Shown one piece after another: positions 1,867-63,754 of a stretch of DNA of 64,000 bases (its first letter is position 1; each line of letters starts with the position of its first letter). Position numbers and translations under genes: made by a program. The notes under the pieces are model-generated. The model worked only from the letters and a program-made list of their open reading frames with translations, was not told the origin of the DNA and made no database searches. Where the stretch lies: positions 2,302,501 to 2,366,500 of the forward strand of contig NZ_CP022540.1 of NCBI RefSeq assembly GCF_002237555.1. The letters run 5' to 3'. This DNA is from Antarctobacter heliothermus. GTDB lineage: Bacteria; Pseudomonadota; Alphaproteobacteria; Rhodobacterales; Rhodobacteraceae.

Positions 1867-3159
1867 CTAGTGCACCACGCGCAACTGTTGCCGTGGGGCC
1901 GCGGTGCCATGGCTGAGCGCATCATAGGGATCATCCGGCGACAGCATCATGTCGACCACCTGCCGCAGCAGTTGCCGCCGCCCTCGGGCAGAGTAAAAAC
2001 CACCCGGAAGTTGCGAGGTTTCCAGCAGATAACGCCGGTAATCCTTGTAGGCGCGGTTGTCTGGCCGGGTCGGCATGTCAAAGAAGTCTGGTAGCGATTG
2101 GGTCGAGACAAATTCAGGTTTGGCATAAACCGCGTCGCCAAAAACCTTGAGCGGGATTCCGCGCCACAGCACCTGTTGCGCGGCGGTGGAATTGACCGTG
2201 ACCGCACTACGCGCGTCGTTCAAAAGCTGCGCCAGCTTGCCGCCACGGACATAGTGCACCCGGTCAAGGACGCCGTGTTTGCGCGCCGATACGGCCACCG
2301 CTGCGCGCACCCGCGCCCGGCCGTCCTCCAGTGGATGCGCCTTGAACACCAGATGGTGATGCCCCGGCGCGCCCTCTGCAAAGCCTCCGATCACCAGATC
2401 GACAAAATCCGGCATCGTCTTGAATGGAGAGTGTTTTTGAAAACTGGAGTCATGTTCCAACTGCATCAGCGCCAAATGGTAGGGGAACCCGCCCAGTCGG
2501 ATGCGCGCAGTCGAGATCACCCTGTCCAGCCAACTGACAGGCATCAGGAACAGCCGCCGCAGATACAGCAGAAACTCCTGAAAGACACTGATGGACCGGT
2601 GGGGTTGAAAGTTGCGGTAGTCGCCGTTTCGGAACATCACGAACCAATGGTAGAGCGCGCCGTAAAAGATGTGCTGGCGCATGTCTCCCCAATGGGCCGG
2701 GGGCAGGGGGGCCTCCATATCGGACAGTTCCAGCGCGCGGCGCATGTCCTCCACGCTCATCTGCATCAACCGCGAATGGCCGTTGCTGCCGCCGCGTTCA
2801 TAGGTGACCCAATAGGGCCGCATATAGCCCTCTTCGAAGACATGGACGGTCAAGCCGCGCGCGCGGGCCTGTTCCACCGCCTGCGCGTGGATGGGGCGGA
2901 CATCACCGTACAAGACGATGTCGGTCACATTGCGTGTTTCGATCAGGTCGACAAACCAGGCGCACCAATCGTCGGGTGTGCCGCGATAGGGCAGATAGCT
3001 GCGAGGGTGGAACCAGAATGCGCGGTCGCCGGCGTTGAACCCGACTCGCCAGACCTCTGCCCCCGTCTTGCGCAGCATTGTGCCAAGTCGGTGAAAGAAC
3101 GGTCCGTGGGGGCCCTGCAGGAACAGAAAGACCCGTTTGTCGCCGGTTGCCTTGGTCAT
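1867..3159 (-). CDS. Capsular polysaccharide biosynthesis/export protein, KpsS-like
   Basis: A 430-aa cytoplasmic protein of the capsule-synthesis family (KpsS/LipB type). In E. coli KpsS adds Kdo to the lipid anchor of group 2 capsules before export. Recognisable parts are the N-terminal VFLFLQGPHGPFF, the region FEEGYMRPYW, the motif FKAHPLEDGR and the late TVNSTAAQQVLWRGIP segment. Length matches the family (about 390-430 aa). It precedes the broken export lipoprotein gene and starts 89 nt from the divergent riboflavin synthase gene. The exact glycan is unknown. Confidence 0.85.
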   Translation of the reverse strand: MTKATGDKRVFLFLQGPHGPFFHRLGTMLRKTGAEVWRVGFNAGDRAFWFHPRSYLPYRGTPDDWCAWFVDLIETRNVTDIVLYGDVRPIHAQAVEQARARGLTVHVFEEGYMRPYWVTYERGGSNGHSRLMQMSVEDMRRALELSDMEAPLPPAHWGDMRQHIFYGALYHWFVMFRNGDYRNFQPHRSISVFQEFLLYLRRLFLMPVSWLDRVISTARIRLGGFPYHLALMQLEHDSSFQKHSPFKTMPDFVDLVIGGFAEGAPGHHHLVFKAHPLEDGRARVRAAVAVSARKHGVLDRVHYVRGGKLAQLLNDARSAVTVNSTAAQQVLWRGIPLKVFGDAVYAKPEFVSTQSLPDFFDMPTRPDNRAYKDYRRYLLETSQLPGGFYSARGRRQLLRQVVDMMLSPDDPYDALSHGTAAPRQQLRVVH

Positions 3160-3248
3160 TGTGCCGCTTTATGTCGGGTGTCTGAACACATCTTTACCGC
3201 CTGAGTTCGTCGAAAATAAGGCTCTGCGGCAGGGGAAAGGGCACATTC

Positions 3249-3836
3249 ATGTTCACCGGCATCGTCACCGATCTTGGCACTGTCCGCACGCTGGACCATC
3301 GCGGCGACCTGCGGGCGCGGATCGCCACCTCTTATGACACGGCCGGCATCGACATGGGCGCATCAATTTCCTGTAGCGGGGTCTGTCTGACGGTTGTGGG
3401 TCTGGGCGACGATTGGTTCGACGTGGATATCTCGGCAGAGACGGTGTCCAAGACCAATGTCGGCGACTGGGTCGAAGGCAAGCGCATCAATCTTGAGCGC
3501 GCCTTGCGGGTCGGGGACGAATTGGGCGGGCACATCGTGTCCGGTCATGTGGACGGCGTCGCAGAAGTGGTGGGCATGGCGGATGAGGGCGACAGCACTC
3601 GCGTCACCTTTCGTGCGCCTGACGCGCTAGCGCGGTTCATCGCACCCAAGGGATCGGTGGCGTTGAACGGGACGTCGCTGACCGTGAATGAGGTCGACGG
3701 ATGTGATTTCGGGATCAACTTCATCCCGCACACCAAGTCCGTCACCACTTGGGGAGAGGTCGCAGTGGGCGACCGGATCAACTTAGAGATCGATACGCTG
3801 GCGCGCTACGTTGCCCGTCTGCAAGAGTGGGGCTGA
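3249..3836 (+). CDS. ribE: Riboflavin synthase, alpha subunit
   Basis: A 195-aa enzyme dismutating two 6,7-dimethyl-8-ribityllumazine molecules into riboflavin and its pyrimidine co-product. It shows the two homologous lumazine-binding halves: MFTGIVTDLG at the N-terminus with SCSGVCLTV, and GHIVSGHVDG opening the second half with LNGTSLTVN. Length is normal for the family (about 195-215 aa). AGGGGAAAGG precedes the ATG. It is convergent with soxT. The gene is called ribE or ribC depending on the nomenclature used. Confidence 0.95.
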   Translation: MFTGIVTDLGTVRTLDHRGDLRARIATSYDTAGIDMGASISCSGVCLTVVGLGDDWFDVDISAETVSKTNVGDWVEGKRINLERALRVGDELGGHIVSGHVDGVAEVVGMADEGDSTRVTFRAPDALARFIAPKGSVALNGTSLTVNEVDGCDFGINFIPHTKSVTTWGEVAVGDRINLEIDTLARYVARLQEWG

Positions 3837-56129: not shown

Positions 56130-56205
56130 GCCCCTATAGCTCAGCTGGTAGAGCAACTGATTTGTAATCAGTAGGTCCGCGGTTCGAGTCCGTGTGGGGG
56201 CACCA
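56130..56205 (+). tRNA. tRNA-Thr (anticodon TGT)
   Basis: A 76-nt cloverleaf: acceptor GCCCCTA/TGGGGGC, D-arm AGCTCAGCTGGTAGAGC, anticodon stem CTGAT/ATCAG with loop TTTGTAA (anticodon TGT, reading ACA), T-arm GCGGTTCGAGTCCGT, discriminator A and encoded CCA. It marks the start of the accessory region, a common insertion point for islands. Confidence 0.95.
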
Positions 56206-56395: not shown

Positions 56396-56649
56396 ATGAC
56401 CATACGAGTTATTGATCTATTTTTGCGGGCCGGGAGGCTTTTCCGCAGGTTTTGAAGCCGCCGATTTCGAGGTGGTGGCTGCTCTCGACTATGACAAAGC
56501 CGCAGTGTCGACCTTCAGCGCCAACCATGGCATTCAAGCCCGGCAACAAGACCTAACAGATTTTGACTACAGCACGTTGCCGGATGCTGAGGTCGTGATA
56601 GGTGGCCCGCCCTGCACTCAGTTCAGTTCAACTAAGTCGAACAAAACTA
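56396..56649 (+). pseudogene. C5 cytosine DNA methyltransferase, frameshifted and truncated
   Basis: The frame MTIRVIDLF from ATG 56396 is continued one base out of register by CGPGGFSAGFEAADFEVVAA; joined they make methyltransferase motif I (DLFCGPGGFS). Five T residues at 56420-56424, where four would keep the frame, explain the shift. Motif IV VIGGPPCTQFSSTKSNKT follows, with the catalytic Cys. The gene then stops at the left end of an IS5-family element, and no later motif (VI, VIII, X) is seen beyond it. Probably a dead restriction-modification or orphan methylase remnant. Confidence 0.85.
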
Positions 56650-57481
56650 GGGTCAGGATTCATTAATTTTGGTCGCGCAGCATGATTCACGGCTCGGAAA
56701 ATGGAGCGGTGACATGAACGATCTCTTCTGGCTGACCGACCCGCAGATGGCCCGTCTGGCGCCTTTCTTTCCCAAGTCCCATGGTAAGCCTCGGGTCGAT
56801 GACAGACGCGTGTTGAGTGGGATTATCTTCATCAATCGCAATGGCTTGCGGTGGCGCGATGCCCCTGCCGCCTGTGGGCCGCACAAAACGCTCTACAGCC
56901 GGTGGAAGCGGTGGAGCAAAAAAAGGATCTTTGCGCGGATGATGGTCGGGCTGGCGGCAGAACACGGCGAAGAGAAGACCGTGATGATCGATGCGACATA
57001 CCTGAAGGCACACCGAACGGCGACCAGCATGGCCGCCAAAAAGGGGGACGTGGCCGCCTGATCGGTCGCACCAAGGGCGGCATGAACACCAAACTGCACG
57101 CCATCTGCGACAGCCAGGGGCGGCCCATCGACCTGTTCGTAACCGCTGGACAGGTGAGCGACTATATCGGCGCACGCGCGATGCTCCGCGGCTTGCCAAA
57201 CGTCAAATGGATGCTCGCGGATCACGGCTATGACGCTGACTGGTTCAAAGAAGCGTTGCAGGACAAGGGCATACGCGCCTGCATCCCCGGTCGGAAATAA
57301 CGCAAGACGCCGGTCAAATACGACAAGCGCCGATTCAAGCGGCGAAACCGCATCGAGATCATGTTCGGCAGACTTAAGGATTGGAGGAGGGTCGCCACCC
57401 GCTATGATCGATGCCCAAAGGTGTTCCTCTCAGCCATCGCCCTCGCGGCGGTCGTCATCTATTGGTTACGAATCCTGACGC
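56650..57481 (+). mobile_element. IS5-family (IS427-like) element, defective
   Basis: An 832-bp element with imperfect terminal repeats (left GGGTCAGGATTCATTAA; complement of right GCGTCAGGATTCGTAA) and a TA duplication (56648-56649, 57482-57483), as in IS427-group elements. It carries a two-frame transposase gene. It truncates the methyltransferase gene. Confidence 0.85.
56714..57481 (+). pseudogene. IS5-family transposase with premature stop
   Basis: ORF A (56714-57061, MNDLFWLTDPQMARLAPFFP) has the first DDE acidic residue in VMIDATYLKAH. A -1 frameshift at the slippery AAAAAGGGGG (57038-57047) would join it to ORF B (GRLIGRTKGGMNTKLHAICD ... LADHGYDADWF). ORF B meets TAA at 57298-57300 after CIPGRK, then stays open in the same frame with RIEIMFGRLKDWRRVATRYDR, the catalytic-Glu region. 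The stop (probably CAA to TAA) separates the third catalytic residue, so the element is likely inactive. Confidence 0.85.
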
Positions 57482-57531: not shown

Positions 57532-58575
57532 TCATGCTTTGTCATTTTCCTCATTTCTCTTGGGACGAGAGAATAGAAATTGCAGAAGCGTCAAGACCCC
57601 TCCAAGGGCGCCCATCAAGAGGACAACCGGATCCGACCCCAACGAATCTATGATCGTGGGGCCAATCACAACCGGGTCGGTCCGAAAATAAAGAAGCGTT
57701 AAATCAACTGGCGCATAGTCTGAAATCGCGGTGACCCTCATTATGGATGTGTCCGGGTCGGGTATGGAAATTTGCAGTCTGGCCTGCGCCGCCGGGACAC
57801 CCATCGGAGGGACCAGTGCGTCGTCTTCTTGCGCGCTGGACTGATGCAGGCACTCCCTGCCACGATCTGTAAAAAGCACCTTCAGGCGCGATTGCAGATC
57901 CCCGTCGTGCCGACAGAAAAAGAGTTGGGCACCGGACCTGACCTCGCCGGTTTTCAGGATGCGGCGCCCGAACCCCAGAGCACTTGACGGTGTGTCTCCG
58001 TTGATTTGGTAGTTGCCCTCCGTCAATGGAATTCCATCCGCTTCAATCGGCCCCGCCCCAAGCACAGCAAGGCCTGAAATCGACAGACTGCCGAACCTTG
58101 TGAGCGCCTCCTTTTCCAGGATGAGACCGCCGCGCAACAATTTTCCGACGTCTGTTTCGGCGTATTCGTCGGGAACGCTTATCACTCGGATCGCCAACCA
58201 GTCGGCGCCGATTGAAAACGTCAATTCCGTGCCCTTTGGCAAAACAGCCGCGAATGTTTCGCCGGGAGGCGCTGACAGGTCGTGGGTTCTACTGTTGCAG
58301 CCAGATTCAACCTTTGCCGTGCTCAGCATGATCTCTGACTTTGCGCGCGCGCGGCACACGCGTGCCCCGAGAAAGGTCTTGTTCATTTCACTAGTCAGCG
58401 TCACGTGCAGTGTTCCGGTGTCAGCCTGCACAAGAACGCTGCGTGAGCGGGTATTCTCGTACCATTTCGGTCCGACGACGGACAACAGTACGACACTCAA
58501 GATCGTCAGCTTGCGCCTGTTTCGCAGGATCCATGCCCAAACTTGTCCGCTCAAAGACCCAACGTTTTCAGCCAT
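57532..58575 (-). CDS. Unrecognised two-TM envelope protein (island gene A)
   Basis: A 347-aa protein with an N-terminal membrane anchor (about 23-38, LTILSVVLLSVVG), a large probably periplasmic domain (about 45-305) containing five cysteines, and a C-terminal membrane segment (about 315-335) followed by a basic tail FSRPKRNEENDKA. No domain is recognised. GAGGGGG precedes the ATG. It is encoded 9 nt after gene B, so the pair probably forms an operon. Lower GC and codon use unlike the sox region point to acquired DNA. Confidence 0.8.
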   Translation of the reverse strand: MAENVGSLSGQVWAWILRNRRKLTILSVVLLSVVGPKWYENTRSRSVLVQADTGTLHVTLTSEMNKTFLGARVCRARAKSEIMLSTAKVESGCNSRTHDLSAPPGETFAAVLPKGTELTFSIGADWLAIRVISVPDEYAETDVGKLLRGGLILEKEALTRFGSLSISGLAVLGAGPIEADGIPLTEGNYQINGDTPSSALGFGRRILKTGEVRSGAQLFFCRHDGDLQSRLKVLFTDRGRECLHQSSAQEDDALVPPMGVPAAQARLQISIPDPDTSIMRVTAISDYAPVDLTLLYFRTDPVVIGPTIIDSLGSDPVVLLMGALGGVLTLLQFLFSRPKRNEENDKA

Positions 58576-58584
58576 GTCGCCCCC

Positions 58585-59286
58585 TCAGTCGCGCGGCCGA
58601 ACGGGTGACACTTCTAAAACGAAGGATTCTTCAGTATTGCTGCGCGTTATGAAAAAGGTCAGCCTTGCATTCTTGTCCGGCGGAAGAAATTCCGTAGGGA
58701 TCGCGCAATCGGCGGTGTATTTGAGGCCGGTCAGTTCAGACACGTCTTTGCAGGCCTCAAAAAAACGATCGCCACGTCCAACCGCGACCGAAGAGGGGTT
58801 TCCGGCAGCGTTGAGATAAACGTGAAGCACCGAATTCTGTGTGCGCGGTGTGGCCCGCCACAGGGTCGGAACCGCCGTCCGGTTGCGGTTGCCGCATCGG
58901 TCCGGCACGACGAGCGCAACAGCCGTCCGATCCGCAAGAAAGTCAGCGTGTTCGCCAGTGTACGGAAAATCCGCGCTATCAATGTCAAAGCCGGGTGGGA
59001 CCATGTAGGTGTTTTCGGCCTCGTACCGTCCATCTTTAGAAACGATCCGCACGCAGACAGGGACGGGCTTTTCAGGGCGCTTCCAAAATGTTGGTATACC
59101 GGTGATCACCGTGGGTGGCAGATCCGAGGGCGAGTCGTCGGTCAGCATGACGCCCATCACGATATCCCCGGACACTTTGGACGTTTCGCTTACGGTCTCA
59201 TGGAAAACATCCTTTTCCAAACCGATTCCCTGTGCCAAGCTTGGAAGAGGAAAGAATATTAAAATAAAAAGGGCTTTAATTGACAT
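58585..59286 (-). CDS. Unrecognised secreted protein (island gene B)
   Basis: A 233-aa protein with a signal peptide (about 1-18, FFPLPSLAQ) and a mature part with four Cys (VCVRI; DRCGN; ACKDVSEL; ADCAIP) likely forming disulfides. The segment IVMGVMLTDDSPSDLPPTVITGIP opens the mature domain. No family is identified. ATG 59286 is preferred over an upstream TTG because GCGGA lies just before it. Its start is 15 nt from the divergent protease gene. It is co-directional with gene A. Confidence 0.8.
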   Translation of the reverse strand: MSIKALFILIFFPLPSLAQGIGLEKDVFHETVSETSKVSGDIVMGVMLTDDSPSDLPPTVITGIPTFWKRPEKPVPVCVRIVSKDGRYEAENTYMVPPGFDIDSADFPYTGEHADFLADRTAVALVVPDRCGNRNRTAVPTLWRATPRTQNSVLHVYLNAAGNPSSVAVGRGDRFFEACKDVSELTGLKYTADCAIPTEFLPPDKNARLTFFITRSNTEESFVLEVSPVRPRD

Positions 59287-59301
59287 GGTTCCGCTCAACT
59301 G

Positions 59302-60390
59302 ATGTTTCGCTTCCAGTGGAAAAATAGTATCGGCTTTCTGCTATTGTGGCTAGTCCTTGGATCGACGGCACAAGCACGTGTCGTCGGGGTCGAAGATGGC
59401 GCCGGTTCGGGGTTCATGTACACCCACCGCGGCAATTGCTTTCTGATACTTCCAACGCATTTGCACGGCCTCATGCGGGAGGGGATCCGGATCGGGGCCC
59501 CCCAAAGCGGAGAAATTGGCACGGCGCAGATTGTCTATCAGGCGCCGGGGGGATCAGATATTTCTCTGGCTCTGGTGCGTGGTGGTATCACCCGCGATTG
59601 CGGGGCGCAGTGGGCCGAACTGCCGCGCAGCCTCTCTGGCGATCTTGATATCGGCGGCGGCGTATTACTTGAACGCGCCCGGCAGAAATCGACAGAGGGG
59701 CGGCAGGTCATTATCCATAGCAAGAACTTCCGACAAGTGCGTCTGGTCCCCGCTGCGGGCGAGGCGGTGGATCTGTTCGGCGGCACAAGCGGCGCAATCG
59801 CGTTTCGCGGCGCGGTTCCGATTGCCATGGTGCTGGATGCGGAAAGCACGGACGCAGTCTGGGCGACGCGGATGGATGAGATCGTGAACCTTCTGGCGCG
59901 TTTTATGGGAGAAGTTCCGCTGGCCGACGATTGCGCTGAAGGCGGCGTTTTATCAGAGGCCTGCGCGGCGGCCCCCGCCCCTGTCGCGGGCGATCCCTTT
60001 GAAATCACCGCTTGGTCGGCCCATCCGGTCGAAGGCGCGGCTGATCCCGCCGGGATGGTGGCCGGAGAAGGAGCCTACGTCGCGTCGCTGGTTGCCGGTA
60101 TGGCTTTTGAGCTGCAACTACAACTTACGGAAACCGACAGGCTCAGCCGGGTACAGATTTTCACCGATCCGAGTAGTGGGCAGGCCGTGCCGAAAACAAT
60201 CGAAATCATCACCGACATGGCAAACGGGCGATCCAAGCGCCCCAATCCGATGCCATTGCGCGATATGTCCCCCGACGGGGTCTATGAAAACCGTGTGGGC
60301 GAACGATTTGCGAAGGTGGTGACGATCCGCGTGATTTCGTCCTGGGGCGGCGGATCGCCGGTCCGGATAGACCGGATCGTGATCGACTGA
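59302..60390 (+). CDS. Secreted trypsin-like serine protease with C-terminal beta domain (island gene C)
   Basis: A 362-aa protein. A signal peptide (about 1-25, GSTAQA) is followed by a chymotrypsin-fold protease with a visible triad: His53 (FLILPTHLHG), Asp86 (GGSDISLALV) and Ser163 (FGGTSGAIAF). After an Ala/Asp/Cys linker (about 205-230), residues 232-362 form a separate beta-rich domain resembling discoidin/galactose-binding modules (LSRVQIFTDPSSGQAVPKTIEII). No ribosome site is obvious. It ends directly against paralogue D1 with no gap (TGATCA shared). Confidence 0.78.
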   Translation: MFRFQWKNSIGFLLLWLVLGSTAQARVVGVEDGAGSGFMYTHRGNCFLILPTHLHGLMREGIRIGAPQSGEIGTAQIVYQAPGGSDISLALVRGGITRDCGAQWAELPRSLSGDLDIGGGVLLERARQKSTEGRQVIIHSKNFRQVRLVPAAGEAVDLFGGTSGAIAFRGAVPIAMVLDAESTDAVWATRMDEIVNLLARFMGEVPLADDCAEGGVLSEACAAAPAPVAGDPFEITAWSAHPVEGAADPAGMVAGEGAYVASLVAGMAFELQLQLTETDRLSRVQIFTDPSSGQAVPKTIEIITDMANGRSKRPNPMPLRDMSPDGVYENRVGERFAKVVTIRVISSWGGGSPVRIDRIVID

Positions 60391-61002
60391 TCAACGCCCT
60401 AGGTCGATAACAACTTCGGTCCGGTAGCCACCAATCATGGGTGTTCCCATAAGGCGGCCTGAATCGTCGAGAGCGACCTGCGCCCAACCGTCCATTCGAA
60501 TGCTGATTTCGCCGGAATTGATCCGAAATAGACAGTAACGGCTTTCCCGCAGGTCCACCCAGCACTTTGCGTCTTCCGAGTACTGCCCGACCGCAAGGGG
60601 GACGCGGGCGGATTTGTCGGCATTTATCGTACCGCGGAAGTGCTTAACTCTATTCCGGAAGTTGTTATTAATATCCCTTTCTTCCGGATACCAGCGCGAC
60701 ACAAGGATTGGCTGAGAGTCGAAGACTGCTGTAACTGCGGCCATCCGTATAGCGGGGTTCGTACTGGACAACCCGTGCTCAATGGCCATCTGTTTTTGTT
60801 GCGTGTCGCCTTTTGTGATCAACAATTGCATGGCGGTCATTGCCCGATCGGGATCAGGATCGTTCAGGCGGTCGCGGAAGGCCGCCATTTGATCGCTGCG
60901 CGAATCCATAGCCTTATCAAGATCATCCAGACTCACCTGAGCTGCTGCGCTCGACGCACAAACAAGACTAAGGCCCACCAAGGCCGCACGAATCATATTC
61001 AT
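60391..61002 (-). CDS. Exported HEAT-like paralogue D1
   Basis: A 203-aa protein: signal peptide 1-21 (SSAAAQ), then QVSLDDLDKAMDSRSDQMAAF and a helical-repeat segment (DRAMTAMQLLITKGDTQQKQMAIEHGLSSTNPAIRMAAVTAV) that looks HEAT-like. A beta-rich C-terminal domain carries two Cys (C-x9-C) and the pattern LDDSGRLMG. It is about 40% identical by eye to D2 in the N-terminal half. It is third in the D3-D2-D1 operon, 26 nt after D2. No known family is assigned. Confidence 0.78.
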   Translation of the reverse strand: MNMIRAALVGLSLVCASSAAAQVSLDDLDKAMDSRSDQMAAFRDRLNDPDPDRAMTAMQLLITKGDTQQKQMAIEHGLSSTNPAIRMAAVTAVFDSQPILVSRWYPEERDINNNFRNRVKHFRGTINADKSARVPLAVGQYSEDAKCWVDLRESRYCLFRINSGEISIRMDGWAQVALDDSGRLMGTPMIGGYRTEVVIDLGR

Positions 61003-61028
61003 ACAGGGGAATTCCTTTTACAGACCGG

Positions 61029-61637
61029 TCATTCGTTCAAATCGATAGTGGCGTTTGTCAGGTTGTCGTTTATGGCCTGTTGGCCGATCAATTTTCCAGA
61101 ATTGTCCAGAGTGTAGTTCCCCCAGCTTCCGCCAAAGTTAATGTTTACGACCTCGCCTCGCATTCGGGCCAAGCAGGGAGTGTAGACGCCATGTGTATAG
61201 GTCCAGCATTGTTCTTTTTCGTCGAAGCCAGAAATTTTGCGGAGAACTTCGGAAGACTTGTCGTCTTTAACGACACCAGCGCTTTGTTTTATCGTTCTAA
61301 AATAATATGTGTCCGGCTCTTCAGAGACCGGTACGAAGGTCAAAACCAACGTCGGTTTGGAATCAAGGATCGCGCGCAGGGTGGTGGCGCGGATTGCCGA
61401 GTCCGTGCTTTGCAACCCATGGCGGATCGCAAGGCGGCGCTGATCGGGGTCGCCTTTGACAATCAACAATTTCAACACCGCAAGCGCGCGGTCAGGGTCC
61501 GCGTCGTTCAGTCGATCCTGAAACGCCCGCAGTTCCTTGCTTCGCGCATCCATCACCTCATCAGCATCGTCCAGACTTACTTGCGCGGCAACGGCTGAGG
61601 CGGCCAACACAACGATCAGTGCTATCATTAATCTCAT
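61029..61637 (-). CDS. Exported HEAT-like paralogue D2
   Basis: A 202-aa protein: signal peptide 1-18 (ASAVAAQ), the same opening QVSLDDADEVMDARSKELRAF, helical repeats (DRALAVLKLLIVKGDPDQRRLAIRHGLQSTDSAIRATTLRAIL) and a C-terminal domain with C-x10-C and LDNSGKLIG. It starts within the stop codon of D3 (ATGA), so translation is coupled. Closest relative in the window is D1. Confidence 0.78.
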   Translation of the reverse strand: MRLMIALIVVLAASAVAAQVSLDDADEVMDARSKELRAFQDRLNDADPDRALAVLKLLIVKGDPDQRRLAIRHGLQSTDSAIRATTLRAILDSKPTLVLTFVPVSEEPDTYYFRTIKQSAGVVKDDKSSEVLRKISGFDEKEQCWTYTHGVYTPCLARMRGEVVNINFGGSWGNYTLDNSGKLIGQQAINDNLTNATIDLNE

Positions 61638-62257
61638 CGGAATTCGATCCTCGCTGGGAAAACGGACTTCGTGTTGAATCTCATGATCTGCCCCGCAAGA
61701 GCGCCGGTCTCATCGAGGGCGAACTGGCCCGAAAGCCCGTCACCGTAGTTAAAGACCATGTCCACGCGAATGCCAGAAACGCTGAGGTTGCGCCCCGGAT
61801 AGCATTCTGACGAGGCATCGACGTTGATGCACTGCGTATCGGGGAACTTTTCTCGAAGAGTCCAGGTTTGCAATGGACCGAACCAGTCATTCAGATTCGA
61901 TTTTTCCTCTGTGTCGAGATCCGTCGTGTCGACGATGACAGACACTGAATCTTTTCGAGCCAGCGCCTCCCAAAGCGCCCTTGCGCGGATCCGGGAGTCC
62001 GTGGCGGATAGCGCTGAATTTATGGCCACCTCTATCAAGGTGGCATCGCCAGATTCGACCATCACATCAAAGGCGGCAAGCGCTCGGTTGGCGTCTGCTC
62101 CCTGCAGGATCTCGATAAGTTGTTGATATTGCCCACTTCGCGTATCAATGCGCGAGAGCAAGGCGTCTATATCGGCGATCTGGGCTTGGGCCGGTACTGA
62201 AAGAGCCACCGCCACGATGGCCACCGAAGAGTGTTTAATCATATTCTTCATATGCAT
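61634..62257 (-). CDS. Exported HEAT-like paralogue D3
   Basis: A 207-aa protein, the most divergent copy: signal peptide about 1-25 (VPAQAQ), helices IDTRSGQYQQLIEILQGADANRALAAFDVMVESGD and ATDSRIRARALWEAL matching D1/D2, then a C-terminal domain with C-x8-C and LDETGALAG. It is first gene of the D operon; the promoter should lie in the 107 nt up to the IS5-family element at 62365, which may have altered its expression. Confidence 0.76.
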   Translation of the reverse strand: MHMKNMIKHSSVAIVAVALSVPAQAQIADIDALLSRIDTRSGQYQQLIEILQGADANRALAAFDVMVESGDATLIEVAINSALSATDSRIRARALWEALARKDSVSVIVDTTDLDTEEKSNLNDWFGPLQTWTLREKFPDTQCINVDASSECYPGRNLSVSGIRVDMVFNYGDGLSGQFALDETGALAGQIMRFNTKSVFPARIEFR

Positions 62258-62364: not shown

Positions 62365-63215
62365 GGTTATGTTGACAAAAGGGATTCCCACCGACCGCTG
62401 ATCGTGATTCAAGCTGGTATTTGCAATGGAGATCAGCTTGGCACGAGACCTCATGTCGGACGAGGAGTGGACATTCTTTGAACAGTTCATCCTGGCCGTT
62501 CGCGCCCCGAATGGGCGCAAACCGACCAACCACCGCATTGTTCTTGATGGAATTTTCTGGATAGCGCGAACAGGAGCGCCGTGGCGTGACCTGCCGGAAG
62601 AGTTCGGCAAATGGTCGAGCGTTTATCGCCAGTTCCGACGCTGGACACTGGCAGGACTATGGGAAGAGATCATGGACGCCCTGAACGACAGCGGGGCCGT
62701 GCCGGACGCCCTACAAATGATCGACAGCACTGTAATTCGCGCGCACCATCAGGCAGCGGGCGCAAAAGGGGGACTCCGCGGCAGGGTTTTGGCCGCTCAA
62801 GAGGTGGCTTCACGACCAAGATCCATCTCCGCGTCAATGCAGCAGGTCTGCCCATGAGAACCGAGATCACGCCCGGTCAGACTTCCGACTATCTGGGGTT
62901 CGATCTGGTCATGGCCGACAACCTGCCTGAACCGCGCGTCCTGTTGGCCGATAGAGGCTATGATTCTGATAGAATACGCAAAAAAAAGGATGCCCGGGAT
63001 GTTCTAACCCAAATCCCGATGCGCAAATCACGCAAGATGCGTGTCGGTGTCGATCATTCGCTGTATTCCTTGCGCAACCTGGTCGAGCGCTGCTTCAACA
63101 AGCTCAAAAACGCCCGCCGCGTCGCAACCCGCTATGACAAGACCGCCGGGAGCTTCCTCGGCTTCATAGACATAACGTCAATCCGCCTTTGGCTGCAGCT
63201 TTTGTCAACATGACC
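62365..63215 (+). mobile_element. IS5-family element, apparently complete
   Basis: An 851-bp element. Terminal repeats GGTTATGTTGACAAAAG (left) and GGTCATGTTGACAAAAG (complement of right end) differ at one position. TA duplications lie at 62363-62364 and 63216-63217. It carries one transposase gene in two overlapping frames with a plausible -1 slippery site and no other visible damage. It lies between the D operon and the lectin-like pseudogene. Confidence 0.88.
62426..63213 (+). CDS. IS5-family transposase (two frames, -1 frameshift expected)
   Basis: The first frame (MSDEEWTFFEQFILA ... PNGRKPTNHRIVLDGIFWIARTGAPWRDLP) contains the first catalytic Asp (QMIDSTVIRAHH). At AAAAGGGGG (62764-62772) a -1 shift enters the second frame (FGRSRGGFTTKIHLRVNAAGLPM; VLLADRGYDSD with the second Asp; LVERCFNKLKNARRVATRYDK with the catalytic Glu region), ending at the TGA at 63211-63213, 2 nt before the element end. 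Frameshift-made transposases are normal in this group. It is likely functional. Confidence 0.85.
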
Positions 63216-63232: not shown

Positions 63233-63754
63233 ATGCGCTCCGCACTTGTGGCCGCGATTTTAAGCCTCATCCTGCCGTATGGCGCACTGGCGCAAAGCCC
63301 GGTCATCCAGACCGAAGGGCCGATCATCCAACTTGCGGACAATCTGGGTGAAGAGGCCATGTTCGGCTGGTGTATCGACACCGAAGGACGTGGGCGGACC
63401 GATCAGCTTCACGCGCATTCCTGCAAACCGACCGGGAACGATGTGCCGATCTTCTATGGCGCGGACAAAGGGCGCATTGAATCTGCGACTTACACCGGTC
63501 GGTGCATGGTGCACAAAGCGCCGGACAGCGAGGAAAAGCCGTTTGGATTGATCGCATGCGACGATACGGACCCGAACCAGCGCTTTGTCCATGACGCCGA
63601 AAGCGGGCAGATCCGTCTGGGTTCCGAGGCGACGTAATGAGTGACGGTCAGTGCCACCATCGACGATGCTGGACCCTTCCAGTCGAAAGACCTGCTTCTG
63701 GGGGCGTGCGACGACCTCGATCCGAGTTTCCCGACGTGGGCCATTCGCGGCTGA
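63233..63754 (+). pseudogene. Secreted ricin-B-lectin-like protein, interrupted by TAA TGA
   Basis: From ATG 63233: signal peptide (1-20, YGALAQ), then a beta-trefoil-like repeat CIDTEGRGRTDQLHAHSC and LIACDDTDPNQRFVHD. The frame ends with two consecutive stops (63635-63640), yet continues in the same frame for 37 codons, including LLLGACDDLDPSFPTWAIRG, a second copy of the LxACDDxDP motif, to a stop at 63752-63754. The intact gene probably had about 170 aa. The truncated 134-aa form could still be secreted. Confidence 0.7.

Follow-up and report, generated by a model that had tools for sequence, protein, structure and literature searches.

A recurrent, apparently mobile gene cassette built around a predicted exported trypsin-like protease in Alphaproteobacteria

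Near one end of a 64,000-nucleotide stretch of the Antarctobacter heliothermus chromosome, referred to below as the window, six genes are packed into positions 57532 to 62257. The open reading frame (ORF) list and the sequence resolve them into four protein families, named here A, B, C and D, the last of which is present in three copies:

57532-58575, minus strand: gene A, membrane protein of 347 amino acids
58585-59286, minus strand: gene B, secreted all-beta protein, coordinates counted from the ATG
59302-60390, plus strand: gene C, exported trypsin/HtrA-like serine protease of 362 amino acids
60391-61002, minus strand: gene D1, exported, HEAT-like hairpins and a beta domain
61029-61637, minus strand: gene D2, 40% identical to its paralogue D1
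61634-62257, minus strand: gene D3, a more distant paralogue
60388-60393: TGATCA, in which the stop codon of C (TGA, 60388-60390) abuts that of D1 (TCA, 60391-60393), tail to tail

A and B are separated by 9 nt, B and C stand head to head across 15 nt, C and D1 have no spacer at all, D1 and D2 are 26 nt apart, and D2 and D3 overlap by 4 nt. For B, the mechanical ORF opens with a TTG at 59298 and yields 237 amino acids; the ATG is preferred. The original prediction, which was made from the letters of the window, had described this layout (gaps of -4 to 26 nt, A and B together on the minus strand, a divergent C 15 nt away from B, and a TGATCA shared by C and D1), and both the ORF list and the sequence bear it out. 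The cluster was also said to have no recognised counterpart, and none turned up in the databases and literature consulted. No protein of the six scores above the Pfam or NCBIfam cut-offs, scans with Pfam, NCBIfam and PADLOC give no nuclease and no NTPase match, PADLOC returns no defence-model match (the best hits, with E values of 0.024 and 0.039, are partial), and PHROGs returns nothing at E<=0.01.

Do these genes belong together? Homologues of C were sought in one genome per genus of the family, where 15 of 394 genomes gave a match, and in genome sets for the order (19 of 390, two of them weak and partial), the class (10 of 385, four of them weak and partial) and the phylum (3 of 398); the four sets overlap. 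Named contigs contributed six loci, three of which overlap the genome searches, and the plasmid records come partly from species already sampled. The locus contexts were scanned with profiles of all four families; for a set of 45 related proteins, contexts were covered where their genomes had entered through other searches. Six C matches that were weak and partial (G602, G467, G972, G737, G696 and G843), and whose contexts of 1.5 kb on each side hold no A, B or D, were dropped, as were three D matches, likewise weak and partial (G055, G125 and G359). This leaves 39 loci with both C and D; the search with C had led to 37 of them and that with D to two. L033 and L113 carry one cassette from a single species, which makes 38 distinct loci.

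B is present at all 39 loci and A, by profile, at 37. At the other two (L041 and L098) an unmatched ORF with two transmembrane (TM) segments occupies the place of A, between B and C. C and D lie tail to tail at 37 of the 39 loci, with gaps of -7 to 220 nt (median 4), a recurrence that argues against chance. The prevailing gene order is A<B<C>D<, and five loci (L041, L085, L097, L098 and L116) have the order B>A>C>D<, with or without a profile match for A; L087 has C>D>B>A> and L037 has D>A<B<C>. That the four families stay together through rearrangement indicates that they are selected as a set. The cluster is a real unit of four families, with D in one (27 loci), two (eight loci) or three copies (four loci). 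The six-gene cluster of the original prediction therefore stands as a unit and is better described as four families; it is not unique to the window, since it recurs in Alphaproteobacteria and, once, in a gammaproteobacterium. In the neighbourhood comparison, A, B, C and D were found to travel together, and independent scattering of their homologues did not occur.

Among the loci found through a full-length C, none of 34 lacks D, yet D can occur without C, which favours a role of D as an inhibitor or immunity protein. A search for D in 384 genomes of the family gave 23 hits, three of them weak and partial. Of the 20 genomes with a full-length D, 17 carry C, B and D (A being recognised by profile in 15 and replaced by an unmatched two-TM ORF in two), and three carry D alone; in the latter, searches run without a positive control gave no match to the C and B profiles and one marginal match to A. 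At L096, an intact solitary D (2694-3401) lies in a genome with no C or B match, and a large ORF about 1 kb away looks SMC/AAA-like by eye.

C alone has no Pfam match. It is assigned as a protease on the basis of an invariant H53-D86-S163 triad and of weak matches of its profile to solved structures, among which DegP/DegQ/HtrA are the nearest (DegP-like 5y28, E 0.007; HTRA1, E 0.03). The Cys46/Cys100 pair is also conserved in 34 of 34 homologues. The landmarks within the gene are as follows:

59458-59460, plus strand: CAT codon of catalytic His53, invariant in 34 of 34 homologues
59557-59559, plus strand: GAT codon of catalytic Asp86, invariant in 34 of 34
59788-59790, plus strand: AGC codon of catalytic Ser163, within GGTSGA, invariant in 34 of 34
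59974-60387 (limits approximate), plus strand: C-terminal domain, weakly similar to a glucanase/chitosanase small domain

C is thus predicted to be an intact and active serine protease of the trypsin/HtrA type, in keeping with the trypsin-like protease originally proposed. Homologues with Asp or Glu at position 157 would be expected to cleave preferentially after Arg or Lys. Its tail matches 4zz5 (glucanase/chitosanase) and 2rva (glucanase) at E 0.004 when the profile is built from alignment A4; neither is listed at E<=1 with the broader alignment A11, and Pfam gives no match. The domain that the tail resembles in these structures is presumably of the CBM32/F5-8C type. At L087, the most remote locus, placed only at the level of the same phylum, a bacterial SH3 domain replaces the usual tail (E 6.5e-5, below the curated cut-off). 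Pfam scans of C and of 34 C members detect no PDZ domain, and none for trafficking or delivery turned up in C.

The D proteins had been called HEAT-like paralogues, a description that fits their identities (D1 is 40% identical to D2 and 29% to D3), their profile and their predicted fold. D1 consists of two HEAT-like hairpins (residues 25-95) and a beta domain (residues 99-200), with a conserved Cys147/Cys157 pair. Its predicted model is compact, with a predicted local distance difference test (pLDDT) score of 92, four helices across residues 25-95 and no stretch below pLDDT 50. The HEAT match of D1 by itself is weak (E 0.009, below the cut-off); the D profile matches designed ARM/alphaRep proteins at E 9e-4, and HEAT_2 is detected in 8 of 49 D members (best E 1.2e-4). 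The HEAT-like label follows from the profile match together with the predicted fold, despite the weak single-sequence score. No enzyme-like match was found in the comparisons made with D1.

Export and TM segments were called by a simple hydropathy rule (19-residue windows, threshold 1.6) and not by a signal-peptide predictor. By this rule, an N-terminal hydrophobic core is present in 33 of 34 homologues of C, 48 of 49 of D, 30 of 34 of B and 31 of 32 of A. Export or TM segments thus recur over the homologues of all four families, as expected if every gene of the cluster encodes an exported or membrane-anchored protein, and together with the triad of C they support the proposal of an exported proteolytic system. 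A had been described as a protein with two TM segments. This holds for 28 of 32 homologues, in which the segments lie near both ends; in the A of the window only the C-terminal segment passes the rule, the best N-terminal window reaching 1.14 against the threshold of 1.6, so that its second segment rests on the homologues. The region between the TM segments, which contains a conserved Cys pair (C74 and C93), would be periplasmic. B is all-beta and secreted, with four invariant cysteines (C82, C135, C183 and C198) and an invariant N163, numbered on the 237-residue ORF that starts at 59298. Conserved cysteines are found in each of the families A, B, C and D. For A and B, no relative of known function turned up.

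Does the cassette follow the descent of its hosts? The rpoB gene was retrieved from 28 of 30 genomes, and the comparison covers 28 C genes from 27 genomes, with D represented by the first listed copy of each locus, which is not always the copy adjoining C. Pairwise distances are correlated among the four families (Spearman 0.72 for C-D, 0.67 for B-D, 0.66 for B-C, 0.64 for A-B, 0.58 for A-C and 0.43 for A-D) but hardly follow those of rpoB (0.02-0.22), figures whose exact values, though not their contrast, are weakened by p-distances near saturation for distant pairs. The closest relative by C is also the closest by rpoB for only 4 of 28 C genes, and in one same-genus pair, G604 (with the locus of Paracoccus maritimus) and G410, RpoB is 97% identical and C 32%. 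The cassette therefore appears to move as a block and is, on these sequence comparisons, horizontally mobile. Plasmids carry copies in Cereibacter sphaeroides 2.4.1 (pC), Tistrella mobilis (pTM2) and Paracoccus aminovorans, and the single gammaproteobacterial copy lies on a plasmid of Pseudoalteromonas shioyasakiensis. On pC, the genes are DQL45_RS22035 for A, RS23585 for B, RS22025 for C and RS22020 for D, with roles assigned through the protein accessions shared with L113. The distribution is patchy, with C, B and D in about 4% of the sampled family genomes (17 of 384). No relatives were detected in phage records, nor in viral contigs scanned with narrow patterns.

The surroundings of the cassette in the window include the following features:

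56130-56205, plus strand: tRNA-Thr, in the left context
56412-56666: 5' part of a gene for a dcm-like DNA cytosine methyltransferase (TIGR00675, E 2.4e-19), which stops where the left insertion sequence (IS) element starts
56651-57481, plus strand: left IS4/5-family element with a PF13340 transposase, limits by eye
62369-63214, plus strand: right IS4/5-family element with a PF13340 transposase, limits by eye

The two transposases are only 32-34% identical to each other. Directly past the second element, 63233-63637 encodes a small secreted protein that weakly matches the ricin-type lectin family (PF00652, E 9e-5, below the cut-off) and was not seen as a recurrent neighbour. In G383, a genome of the same genus with no C match and no D match, the DNA shows an 89% match to the window that stops at the 3' end of the tRNA-Thr, the G383 contig ending about 1 kb later. 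Integration at the tRNA-Thr is likely, judging from this break in the alignment. The last 20 nt of the tRNA have no exact repeat within the following 80 kb. Horizontal acquisition, first proposed as having taken place beside the tRNA-Thr, is supported by the discordance with rpoB. The tRNA marks the end of synteny with G383, but at most of the other loci scanned the stretch examined contains no tRNA. The same tRNA-Thr in G383 is accompanied by an ORF (L107, 904-1278) that by eye resembles a serine recombinase fragment, which suggests that other elements use the site too.

Genes around the other loci were called with a home-made codon score, so that starts and small genes are uncertain. The commonest recurrent group among those listed is that of ABC-transporter ATPases (12 of 43 loci), which belong to a common family and lie some kb away. 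At least 6 of the 39 loci (L029, L039, L073, L036, L077 and L079) encode a protein with a PG_binding_1 domain no more than two genes away from the cassette, a count that has no background rate for comparison and whose cases are not independent, L029, L039 and L073 sharing one protein family and L036 and L077 another. In the first three, the gene follows A directly and on the same strand (L029 12422-13789, L039 6319-7563, L073 6185-7699) and encodes a secreted protein with about 47-50% mutual identity; beside it is a convergent gene for a partner of about 420 amino acids, 54-57% identical among the three loci and without a Pfam match in the two tested. It is possible that this pair forms the fifth and sixth component of one cassette subtype. 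At L036 (6208-8840) and L077 (11698-14503), the other PG_binding_1 protein (60-63% identical) lies on the side of D and adjoins an unclassified, probably exported protein, and at L079 the domain is part of a protein of 1568 amino acids. Taken with the tail of C and the SH3 domain of L087, these neighbours may hint, weakly, at a link with the cell wall.

Single loci have further neighbours. Just outside D at L029 (5335-8786) are a Slam-like outer-membrane protein (SlipAM, E 3e-33) and two ORFs that look lipoprotein-like by eye. On a Cereibacter sphaeroides plasmid, A is adjoined by a caspase-family Peptidase_C14 protein with a hydrophobic segment (L113, 5491-6939) and by two small proteins that also have hydrophobic segments. 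Near the Pseudoalteromonas copy, a single case, are a nuclease-related protein, a helicase and an HNH endonuclease.

How does the cassette compare with described systems? The literature searches made brought up no paper on this gene combination. HtrA/DegP proteases carry one or more C-terminal PDZ domains. C resembles them (DegP and DegQ, S1C) as an exported trypsin-like protease with a His-Asp-Ser triad, but it has a different C-terminal domain in place of PDZ, constant partners in B and D (39 of 39 loci each) and A (37 of 39), and a mobile, patchy distribution. In exported pairs of protease and inhibitor, such as serralysin-Inh and staphopain-staphostatin, the protease gene stands beside that of a small beta-barrel inhibitor. 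They involve other protease classes and are not known to have a HEAT part or partners such as A and B.

The components of NTP (nucleoside triphosphate)-dependent conflict systems (Trypco/VMAP, iSTAND) are mainly intracellular. These systems combine trypsin-like peptidases with Trypco/VMAP partners and centre on NTPases or a NucA nuclease; some of their effectors contain HEAT repeats, and one NucA-trypsin system has TM-fused trypsin domains (PMC7159879). Judged by the portion of that paper available, they share with the cassette a trypsin-like protease with partners in a compact multi-gene set, whereas the cassette has no NTPase or nuclease match and all its components have export or membrane segments. 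Pairs of a metallo-beta-lactamase (MBL) nuclease and a trypsin protease in antiviral systems are co-inherited and transferred (PMC12799240). As far as the accessible text describes them, the likeness lies in a trypsin-like protease that is inherited along with a partner and passed on by transfer; their partner is a nuclease, in contrast to the six proteins here, which have no nuclease match. HEAT-repeat immunity proteins (Imm-HEAT) are known from polymorphic toxin systems (PMC3482391). As with D, a HEAT-containing protein has its gene next to that of a possible toxin. D differs in adding a beta domain and a signal peptide, and C yielded no trafficking or delivery domain. The main text, tables aside, of a transposon sequencing (Tn-seq) study of Cereibacter (Rhodobacter) sphaeroides, in the part available, says nothing on the cassette genes of pC (PMC5513736).

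What might the cassette do? The best model, offered tentatively and with a little less than an even chance of being right, is that of a mobile, self-contained envelope module in which the membrane-tethered protease C is restrained by D. A and B would form a periplasmic, membrane-bound scaffold or sensor, and the C-terminal domain would bring C to cell-wall glycan. D would bind C and hold it inactive, as a cognate inhibitor or immunity protein, until a disturbance of the envelope releases C to cleave envelope or foreign proteins. The view of D as an antidote derives from its tight pairing with C, its duplication, and the existence of solitary D but no solitary C genes. Mobility and fast divergence, not the neighbourhood, suggest a role in conflict (with phage, predators or rival cells) rather than in housekeeping. 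The neighbourhood itself speaks against a role in defence: among 107 neighbour genes, the Pfam families (25 of 167 listed) are mainly of transport, metabolic or regulatory kinds. PADLOC families (25 of 119 listed) include mad3 in three members, two others in two, and the rest, PtuA and DpdF among them, in one each; such matches, which lack a control, neither show nor exclude an enrichment in defence genes. The original interpretation, a periplasmic or outer-surface proteolytic system acquired horizontally, is partly supported overall; of the roles that it named for D (substrate, inhibitor or sensor of the protease), inhibitor is the one favoured by the distribution of C and D.

The D proteins could instead be proenzymes or effectors that are cut and activated by C, A and B serving as its sensor and anchor. 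Such an arrangement is rather unlikely; it has a precedent in trypsin-like proteases that activate effectors in antiviral systems, as reported in the available part of PMC12799240, and would suit a D present in one to three diverging copies. Yet D1 is predicted to be compact and confidently folded, with no enzyme-like match in the comparisons made, and solitary D genes are harder to explain if the effector needs C. An accessory HtrA-like protease for envelope quality control or stress, spread with its own adaptors as a fitness gene set, also seems improbable. The protease domain of C does lie nearest to DegP/DegQ/HTRA1 among solved structures, and the mainly metabolic, transport and regulatory neighbours (among the Pfam families listed) would suit such a role, but no PDZ domain was detected in C, and the set is patchy, independent of species distance and extremely divergent, as in the G604/G410 pair. 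Harder still to credit is a device for maturation or secretion, which would trim or assemble a surface or cell-wall protein whose gene lies in cis. Secreted peptidoglycan-binding proteins close to the cassette, three of them directly downstream of A on its strand, and the Slam-like protein beside D at L029 could be read in this way; against it, the recurrent neighbour groups include no constant client gene.

A more specific form of the envelope module, for which the chances are poor, is an undescribed class of envelope immunity or antagonism: a tethered, glycan-docked protease with a HEAT-containing antidote, released in the periplasm when the envelope is attacked (by phage entry, a predator or a rival cell). 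It would work free of NTPases and spread as a set of four genes.

Most of the protease-based conflict systems described from bacteria work in the cytosol. In the searches made, the cassette matched no described system, and it may be an unrecognised device of the bacterial cell envelope. If so, an exported protease cassette that moves en bloc across families and classes would open a periplasmic branch of protease-based conflict biology, and the copy on pC of Cereibacter sphaeroides 2.4.1 makes the cassette directly open to deletion and assay in that organism.

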